Assembly: GCF_011758645.1 (NCBI RefSeq) | Contig: NZ_JAAMOZ010000001.1 | Coordinates: 1,488,001-1,552,000, forward strand | Direction of reading: 5' to 3' | DNA: 64,000 nucleotides | Source: Brooklawnia cerclae | GTDB lineage: Bacteria > Actinomycetota > Actinomycetes > Propionibacteriales > Propionibacteriaceae | Shown: positions 45,009 to 54,786 of the stretch, one piece after another | How the letters are laid out: each line of letters opens with the position of its first letter | Numbering within the stretch: position 1 is the first letter of the stretch | The notes under the pieces: model-generated | The model's database searches: none | The model's input: only the letters and a program-made list of their open reading frames with translations | Told to the model about the DNA's origin: nothing | Program-made: the position numbers and the translations under genes

Positions 45009-48000
45009 GTGTTGCTGGAAGAACTCGCATCGGGTCTGCGTCTTGATGGGCTGATCCCTGGTGAGGTTGTCACGGTCATTCAAGCCCAGCCCTATGGCAC
45101 CGGCGCTGTCGAACTCACCTACAGGACATCGGCCGGTGGCCTAGACAGCCAGATGGTCTTCCGCAGGGATGCGGACGGCTTGTCGGTCGCCCACGGTGCG
45201 GGCAGGCCGTTCGATGCCGATGCGGGCGACTTCAAACTGGTCGCCGAGGCCCAGCGCATCAGACTCGCGGGCCTGTTCGACCCCATGCTGGCGGTGGCAA
45301 CCTCCGATGTACAGCCTCTGCCGCATCAGATCAGTGCCGTCTACGAGAAGATGCTGCCGCGCATGCCCCTGAGGTTTCTGCTGGCCGACGATCCCGGCGC
45401 CGGCAAGACGATCATGGCTGGTCTGTACATCAAGGAGTTGTTGCTGCGTGACGACGTGCGGCGCGCGCTCATCGTCGCGCCCGGCGGGCTGGTCGAGCAG
45501 TGGCAGGACGAACTGTTCCTGAAATTCGGGTTGCATTTCGACCTGCTGACCACTCAGCTGGCCGACGCGAACATCAACACCGACGTGTTCGAGCGGTATC
45601 CACTGCTCATCGCGCGGATGGATCAGCTAGCGCGGAACGTCGATCTGCAGGCCCAACTCAGGCAGACCGAGTGGGATCTGGTGGTGGTCGACGAGGCCCA
45701 CCGCATGGGCGCGCACTACTTCGGCAACAAACTCGAGAAGACCAAGCGCTTCCAGCTCGGCGAGTTGCTCGGCAGCATCACGCGGCATCTGCTGCTCATG
45801 ACGGCCACACCGCACTCGGGCAAGGAGGAGGACTTCCAGCTGTTCCTTTCGCTGCTCGACCGTGACCGGTTCGAGGGCAGGCACAAACAGGCCGTCGACA
45901 CCGGCGACATCATGCGGCGCATGGTCAAGGAGGATCTGCTGACGTTCGACGGTCATAGGCTGTTCCCCGAGCGCATCGCCGAGACGGTTCCGTACGAGCT
46001 GACGGAGATGGAGTACGACCTGTACGACCAGGTCAGTGCCTACGTACGTGAGGGCATGAACAGGGCCGAGCGCCTCAACCCGAATCGCCGCAATACCGTC
46101 GGTTTCGCGCTCACAGTGCTGCAGCGGCGGCTCGCGTCCAGCCCCGAGGCGATCTACCAGTCGTTGGTCAGGCGCACTAAACGGCTGCGGCGGCGCCGGG
46201 ACGACATCATCGCGGGCAGGCATGCCGAGCCCGAGGCAGACGTCGACCCCGAGGCGTTTGATGCCGACGAATACGACGCGGAACAGGTCGAACAGATCGA
46301 GGACGAGCTCGTCGATGCGGCGACCGCGGCTCAGACCGTCGCAGAACTCGACAAGGAACTGATCGACCTGGATGAGCTGACGGGGCTCGCCAGGCGGGTG
46401 CGCGACGCGGGCACCGATCGGAAATGGACCGAGCTGAGCCGCATCCTGCAGGATCACGCCCTGACCACCGACGCCAGGGGAGTGCCTCGCAAACTTATCG
46501 TCTTCAGCGAGCACCGCGACACCCTCAACTACCTCGCCCACCGGATTCGGGTCCTGCTGGGGCGCCCCGAGGCGGTGCAGACGATCCACGGCGGGGTGCG
46601 CCGTGCCGAGCGGCGCCGGATCACCGAGGAGTTCACCAAGAACCCCGACGTGCAGATTCTCATCGCCACCGACGCCGCCGGGGAAGGCCTGAACCTCCAA
46701 GCCGCGCACCTGATGGTGAACTACGACCTGCCGTGGAACCCCAACCGCATCGAGCAGAGGTTCGGGCGCATCCATCGCATCGGGCAGACCGAGGTGTGTT
46801 ACTTGTGGAATCTGGTCGCCACCAACACCCGCGAGGGCGACGTGTTCACCTGCCTGCTCGGCAAGCTCGACGAGATGCGCCGTGCCTACGGTGGCAAGGT
46901 GTTCGACGTCCTCGGGGAGGCTTTCGAGAACAAGCCTCTGCGCGACCTGCTGATGGAGGCCGTGCAATACGGCGAGCGGCCCGAGACGCGCGCGAGGATG
47001 CGCGAGCTGATCGACGCCAGGGTGGGGGACGGGATGAAGGAGCTCCTCGACAAGCGCGCACTGGCCAACGATCATCTGGCGACCGCCGACCTGGAGCTAC
47101 TGAAGGCCGCGATGGACGAGGCCAGGGCCCGGCGCCTGCAACCTCACTACATCGAGTTGGCCTTCCGTGCCGCGTTCACACGGCTTGGCGGGCGCATCGT
47201 CCGTCGCGAACAGGGACGCTATGAGATCACCAACGTGCCCTCAGCGATACGAGCGAGCCGGTTCGGGCCGATCGCGACGAAGTACGAACGTGTCGCGTTC
47301 GACCTGGCACGGGTCGAGCCGGACGGGCTGACGCGTGCCGATCTGCTCGCTCCCGGCCATCCGCTGCACGACGCGGTGATGGAGCTGGTCGATCAGCGGT
47401 TCGCGGGCGTCCTGAACGCCGGCACGGTGCTCGTGTCGGCGGAGCTCGACCGGCCGCACCTGCTGGTGGGAGCCGTGGAGGAGATCACTGACGCGACCGG
47501 TGCGAGCGTGAGCCGCCGGTTCGGGTACGCGTTCGCCGACGCGGACGGCACAGTCACCGCTGCGGGCCCCGCGCCCTATCTCGACTGCGTGGCCGCGCCC
47601 GATATCCCGGTCACCCGCGCCGCGAGGCAGCAGGATTGGCTGGCTGAGGCCGAAGACCGAGCCAAGAGCTGGATCGTCGTGCACCATCTGCCGGAGTATC
47701 TCGGCGAGGTGCTGCCTCGCCGCGCGGCCCAGCTCGCGAAGACCCGCGAGCTGGTGACTCGGCGCCTCGAACGAGAGCGCGACCGCCTGACACTCGAAGC
47801 GGTCGTCGCGGGCCAGAAGGAGCGAGCGGGAGAGAAGGTACCGGAGTCGTCGGACAGCCTGAACCGGAAGGCAGCCGAACTCGACGGCCGATTGCGTACC
47901 CGGCTCGCTCAACTCGACCAGCAGGAGCGGATGTCGACGAAACCTCCGCGTGTGACCGCGGCGGCGCTGGTGCTGCCTCTGTCGATGGTCGAGGATGCCG

Positions 48001-54300: not shown

Positions 54301-54786
54301 ACCGGTGGGGGCCGGTATGTGGGGCTCTGGCTACCCGACGACAAAGACAAGTCCGCCCCGGCGTCCACTGACTCGATGCTGCTGGTGCGTCCCGATGTGG
54401 CCCAGATGCAGCGGCAGCACGAGTCACAGGGGCCCGTCGGCATTCCTGGCCCAGTCCCGGAGACGACCAGGGACTCCGGTGGTGATGCGACTCCCGCCGA
54501 CTCGCATATCGTGGTCACTCCGCCGCCACCCGGCCCGCCGATCATCCTGGACCTCAAGACGCGGTTCTTCGGCGACAAGGCACTCAACCCCGATCGCTAC
54601 GTCGTCGAGTTCAAGAATGTCGCCGAAGAAGTCGTCTCGTACCTGCGCGATTCAGGGGCTAAGGTCAGCGTCCGCATCGAGATCGAGGCCACCAAGCACG
54701 ACGGATTCGAGGAAGCTCTCATCCGTACGGTGTCGGAGAACGCCGCGACGCTGAAATTCGATCAGTGGGGTTTCGAAGACCTCTAG
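51391..54786 (+). CDS. DUF499 family ATPase (Hma-like defence ATPase)
   Basis: 1131 residues. N-terminal Swt1/HEPN-like helical region (LTAPALDDFISSVIGQEDKV, about 1-130), then an ATPase core with Walker A TNFGGGKTHSML near residue 258 and Walker B VILIDEW near 369, as in DUF499 proteins. The C-terminal 500 residues are unassigned. It follows the methylase by 1 bp with GAGGAG upstream of the ATG, so the two are co-translated. The DUF499-DUF1156-helicase combination is a recurrent defence-island module; the molecular mechanism is not known. Confidence 0.88.
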   Translation: MALSNRDRVDRMFQLTAPALDDFISSVIGQEDKVLGAQWVTLVQAKDAKNGVPATKSYDPLDPQVQFRILTESNITGGYRHGWYPFDPVLDKAGKAYASELREVRNRWAHDLGRNVAFTDDDAYRALDTAERLLKLIGSADVAEQVRMIRLNLRRVTADKDDKKVLKAAVDTPRVAGLRPWREVLPPHDDVATGNFAASEFAADLHRVAFGREQDADYSDPIEFFQRTYLTEGLSDLIGRAVRRLAGDDNAPPVINLQTNFGGGKTHSMLSLWHVAAGLPIGSFPQETQELLAANGYTGTKVNRVAIVGNHFSPSGVVKDDGTRVNTMWGELAWQLGGRDAFALVAKSDADRTHPGAALYDLLAAYAPAVILIDEWVAYARSLVGRDDLAGGTFDDQFTFAQTLTEAAKATSGILLAISIPASESGADLDRIIAGNAEEVGGANGLEALKRLQNVVRRVADQWRSASPDESYHIVKQRLFKQPDAAALAEIGATAREFVDMYRKFSDDFPRESRDAAYGERIKRTYPIHPELFDRLYEEWSSLERFQRTRGVLRLMSTVIHELWAGQDASPLIMPGSIPLATANVNAELTQYLQDSWKAIIDADVDGPASEPVRIDGEKPALGQRSLTKRLARTVFFGAAPTIGSAHKGLETQRVFLGTAIPGDVLGNFHSALTQLSDRATYFYGGSGKYWYDLQANITRTARDQAERLHKEDVWAEIVARLQGQGRIRGDFAGVHVCPETNADIPDIDEARLVILHPKVAHRRGQESPAKDFARDATERRGSANRVHRNMLVFLAADEARLDELNAATRDYLGWAHVLDNQVDLDLTKNQINQAAQRQEQADKTVASRLMQTFVWALVPAQPDPGAPFVIRETKVEGQSTGLAERVSRRLGGDGDLAIRQAATNIRLAISRVPQIWKDGHVSFGELWSLYSQYPYMPRLRDRSVLAEGVRDMPLIWQADAFALATGYDQTGGGRYVGLWLPDDKDKSAPASTDSMLLVRPDVAQMQRQHESQGPVGIPGPVPETTRDSGGDATPADSHIVVTPPPPGPPIILDLKTRFFGDKALNPDRYVVEFKNVAEEVVSYLRDSGAKVSVRIEIEATKHDGFEEALIRTVSENAATLKFDQWGFEDL

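Follow-up and report, generated by a model that had tools for sequence, protein, structure and literature searches.

The fusion of a HEPN domain to a DUF499 ATPase was described in 2013 (PMC3710099), the architecture was named Hma in 2021 (PMC8565338), and it was reclassified as Type-1 BREX-related (BR) in 2026 (PMC12839542). In the last of these studies, HEPN was counted in 1370 and a helicase-nuclease fusion in 1921 of 2446 Type-1 taxa; many Type-1 taxa lack HEPN, and its presence at the N-terminus of the ATPase is a trait of a subset of Type-1 BR members. As cited there (reference 112 of PMC12839542), an experimental study found anti-phage activity for an HmaA-type helicase fused to a nuclease domain. 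Given that citation, the Hma family is no longer merely a predicted one. Here we analyze a locus of this kind in Brooklawnia cerclae.

Results

The window, by which we mean the whole 64,000-nucleotide stretch of DNA analyzed, carries three collinear genes on the plus strand at 45009-48419, 48597-51389 and 51391-54786. A PADLOC profile search matched them to HmaA, HmaB and HmaC with 1302, 1074 and 852 bits (E=0, 0 and 2.4e-256), over amino acids (aa) 2-1110, 3-916 and 178-1129, respectively. A chance match is excluded because of these E-values and because the A-B-C order on one strand is kept in 69/69 complete loci, window included. A sequence-only reading had proposed an Hma-type composition for three collinear genes of 1136, 930 and 1131 residues, separated by 177 and 1 bp, that encode an SNF2/DUF3883 helicase, a DUF1156 DPPY methylase and a DUF499 ATPase. 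The PADLOC scores bear out the composition, Pfam recovered SNF2/Helicase_C with NOV_C, DUF1156 and DUF499, and the open reading frames and both gaps were confirmed.

The hmaA gene (1136 aa) starts with GTG at 45009, preceded by GGAGG at 44995-44999, a good ribosome-binding site. The hmaB gene (930 aa) also starts with GTG, and hmaC (1131 aa) starts with the ATG at 51391, one base past the hmaB stop, the mechanical open reading frame beginning at 51319. Neither the 177-bp gap between hmaA and hmaB (48420-48596) nor the 1-bp gap between hmaB and hmaC holds an inserted gene. The operon was the only DUF499 locus found in the 3.79-Mb genome. Its GC content is 64-68%, similar to that of the surroundings, which rules out a foreign base composition. 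Judged by these matches, the window operon is an intact copy of the known, widespread three-gene defence system Hma/Type-1 BR.

A Pfam scan showed that the flanking genes identified are metabolic. A REP-like repeat of ~110 bp lies at 54790-54900, directly after the hmaC stop codon; more than 30 copies with ~80-90% identity are present in the B. cerclae genome, other genomes of the genus have short matches or none, and the repeat can form a long hairpin (z -2.3). It is followed on the plus strand by a VapBC-type pair, an Rv0623-like antitoxin (55044-55298; Pfam E=7.8e-26) and a PIN-domain toxin (55300-55698; Pfam E=4.6e-18). No conserved synteny at the Hma site was found in the genus genomes compared. 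An empty site could not be read from them, because homologs of the flanking YigZ and BtuF genes sit there at unlinked positions and the DapA-like gene lacks a close copy.

Pfam and the predicted model gave the layout of HmaA as an N-terminal beta domain, an SNF2 helicase that matches the RapA fold, a long helical region, and a DUF3883/NOV_C domain at aa 1012-1096 (48042-48296, plus strand; E=1.5e-14). The sequence-only reading had seen no classical restriction nuclease in the operon. PMC3710099, however, describes DUF3883 as a novel REase domain, and in the window D1042...E1056-x-K1058, within GFDI...IEVK, make up a complete PD-(D/E)XK triad. This D/E/K triad is unchanged in all 77 alignable HmaA sequences, window included; one further HmaA was incomplete and was left out of the count. 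These data suggest that the DUF3883/NOV_C domain of HmaA is likely a PD-(D/E)XK nuclease, which agrees with the sequence-only reading, where DUF3883 was put forward as a possible site of the killing step.

A second candidate nuclease domain, which the sequence-only reading missed, is found at the N-terminus of HmaC, where Pfam places HEPN_Swt1 at aa 11-138 (51421-51804, plus strand; E=1e-26) in addition to DUF499 (E=7.9e-24). In the predicted model (mean pLDDT 85.9), the HEPN domain is followed by an AAA+ core containing the sequences GGGKT and ILIDE and by helical regions; the segment at 1014-1054 is disordered and leads to a short domain at the C-terminus. The HEPN domain is helical in the model, with RNRWAH closing helix 92-110. 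Its motif is R105-N106-x3-H110, and the histidine is present in all 92 HmaC proteins, of 96, that align there; the other four are three Poribacteria proteins (934 aa) without the domain and one open reading frame with a wrong start. The arginine is replaced in 5/93 HmaC, and the Walker motifs GKT and DE are kept in 96/96. Thus, HEPN_Swt1 of HmaC is the second likely nuclease of the operon, a predicted RNase.

It had also been suggested that the killing step might lie in the C-terminal region of the ATPase. Predicted structure and conservation spoke against this: the region is fast-changing and partly disordered, it contains the least conserved block of the protein (aa 1001-1050), and a search of it for a catalytic motif found none. 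We therefore rejected the C-terminus as a killing domain. Helices 1070-1087 and 1108-1120 fit a C-terminal RRM/ferredoxin-like fold, the strands being unassigned in the model. A search by sequence found no solved relatives of HmaC or HmaB, and HmaC had no significant fold match to solved structures.

HmaB has DUF1156 at aa 10-80 (Pfam E=6.6e-31) and the methylase motifs DPFAGGG (aa 117-123) and DPPY (aa 522-525), both present in 103/103 alignable HmaB sequences. The insert that separates them is the most variable part of the protein apart from the extreme C-terminus, and aa 251-500 form the least conserved long stretch. HmaB was described as an m5C methylase (PMC8565338); the DPPY motif points instead to methylation of adenine at N6 or of cytosine at N4, at odds with that description. 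HmaB relatives occur on 193 plasmid records. In two Lachnospiraceae loci (L144:14326-16563 and L169:4709-6958), the full-length hmaB is separated from hmaC by an additional, shorter gene for an HmaB-like methylase.

For comparison, 33 loci were collected within the order and 79 across prokaryotes, and recognised duplicates were removed; because loci were picked by similarity and the set is skewed to close relatives, its counts are not population figures. Hma was found in 38/298 genomes of the order. The helicase, REase, methylase, HEPN and ATPase motifs are conserved across 77 to 103 relatives. Extra genes, in a gap longer than 600 bp, are present in 49/69 complete loci: between hmaA and hmaB in 28, between hmaB and hmaC in 35, and at both places in 14. 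We scanned 80 inserted open reading frames; by Pfam name they included 13 AAA_21/AAA_15 ATPases, 10 YhcG/DUF1016 nucleases, 5 GmrSD and 5 Schlafen AlbA_2 proteins, and 13 of the 80 match PADLOC HEC models, which are published Hma-embedded candidates (PMC12988326). These matches suggest that many of the extra genes in the gaps are defence genes. Two separate complete Hma operons (L049 and L050) occur in one congeneric genome (G230), and in each of them a YhcG/DUF1016 nuclease gene lies between the methylase and ATPase genes.

Nine hmaB-hmaC loci lack hmaA (L037, L053, L058-L061, L116, L123 and L124; for example, L124:9974-21832). In all nine, hmaC is followed by a GHKL ATPase gene (PADLOC MzaB) whose start lies within -7 to +7 bp of the hmaC end; DUF4420 (MzaD) and a ~1000-aa Z1 protein (MzaC) accompany it in eight, and a C5-cytosine methylase is close by in seven. 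None of the GHKL, DUF4420, Z1 and C5-methylase genes was found in the examined stretches of the 68 hmaA-bearing relatives, of which 59 have at least 2 kb past hmaC. These arrangements point to a possible Hma-Mza hybrid, in which a Mza-type module stands in place of HmaA. The main text of PMC12839542 makes no mention of MORC, Mza, DUF4420, the Z1 domain, GHKL or AIPR, and the replacement of HmaA by such a module may be newer than the rest of the Hma findings.

Discussion

We propose, with a probability of roughly 0.72, that the window encodes a complete Hma (Type-1 BR) defence system that acts like multi-part restriction-modification with two nucleases. The following course is our inference throughout, from methylation and the cutting of DNA and RNA to protection against phage; this includes which site is targeted, what triggers the system and in what order the two nucleases respond. 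HmaB would methylate adenine (cytosine at N4 being less likely) and so mark the host DNA, its variable insert selecting the methylation sites. The AAA+ ATPase HmaC would scaffold or scan DNA, and HmaA would travel along unmarked DNA and cut it with its PD-(D/E)XK domain. Upon activation of HmaC, or on failure of the first attack, the HEPN domain of HmaC would act as a second effector and cleave RNA. The same two-nuclease, restriction-modification-like model was proposed in PMC12839542. It best fits the PADLOC and Pfam matches, the conservation of motifs and gene order, the variability of the HmaB insert, the RapA-like fold of HmaA, the occurrence of the system in part of the genomes of the order, and the HmaB relatives on plasmids. 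Some caution comes from the m5C description of HmaB, from HmaC having no solved relative by sequence or fold, and from the names given by Pfam and PADLOC, which are themselves predictions.

The main rival is that the system works mainly by abortive infection, in which methylation and the helicase would serve as the sensor, the HEPN RNase of HmaC would be the main killing step, and DUF3883 would help to sense or process DNA. The near-universal presence of HEPN in our sample and its retention in the nine loci without HmaA agree with this. However, the DUF3883 triad is kept more strictly than the HEPN motif, in which the arginine varies, and both the three Poribacteria proteins and many of the published taxa do without the domain; we consider this explanation unlikely. 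A decayed operon, or one with no role in defence such as an epigenetic regulator retained solely for methylation, would suit the metabolic flanking genes, among which the toxin-antitoxin pair is the sole other defence-like feature found adjoining, but it is very improbable given the patchy occurrence in the order, the relatives on plasmids, the defence genes inserted in the relatives' operons, and the open reading frames and intact motifs in the window.

The window copy, having no inserted helper genes, is convenient for asking which of the two candidate nucleases protects. The loci without hmaA allow a further, tentative reading: HmaB and the HEPN-DUF499 protein HmaC might form a constant core with an exchangeable DNA-cutting arm, which is HmaA in most loci, including the window, and elsewhere a Mza-type module (GHKL ATPase, DUF4420 nuclease and Z1). 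Were this true, sensing and RNA cleavage would be tasks of HmaC in both kinds of locus, and the helicase-nuclease would be a plug-in. The replacement of HmaA could help to tell the recognising parts from the cutting parts.

Among the known systems, Type-2 BR does not fit: in Pfam, none of the three proteins shows DUF3780, the helicase carries no N-terminal HKD nuclease, and the operon has no further gene. The ATPase, methylase and helicase of Type-3 BREX are homologous (PMC12839542), and HmaA also matches PADLOC BrxHII; unlike that system, the window operon adds the REase and HEPN domains, no PglZ gene was found among the flanking genes scanned, and BrxA and BrxF were not noticed among the neighbors. 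The Ava_2192-type neighborhoods (PMC3710099) share a Swt1-like HEPN fused to a DUF499 ATPase in an operon with restriction-modification genes, including SNF2-DUF3883, but they are known from the 2013 sequence analysis only and bear no system name. All three window proteins match the PADLOC Hma models (PMC8565338) nearly end to end, in the same order and strand, except that the HmaC model (941 positions) omits the N-terminal HEPN. The HEPN-fused variant of Type-1 BR (PMC12839542) shares these parts with the window: a DUF499 AAA+ ATPase with Walker motifs and N-terminal HEPN, a DUF1156 methylase with DPPY, and an Snf2 helicase with a predicted C-terminal PD-(D/E)XK domain. No feature was found by which the window copy differs from this variant; the reported C-terminal RRM fold was not clearly seen in the predicted HmaC model. 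The Hma operon of the window is already explained by described systems, to which it adds another family member.
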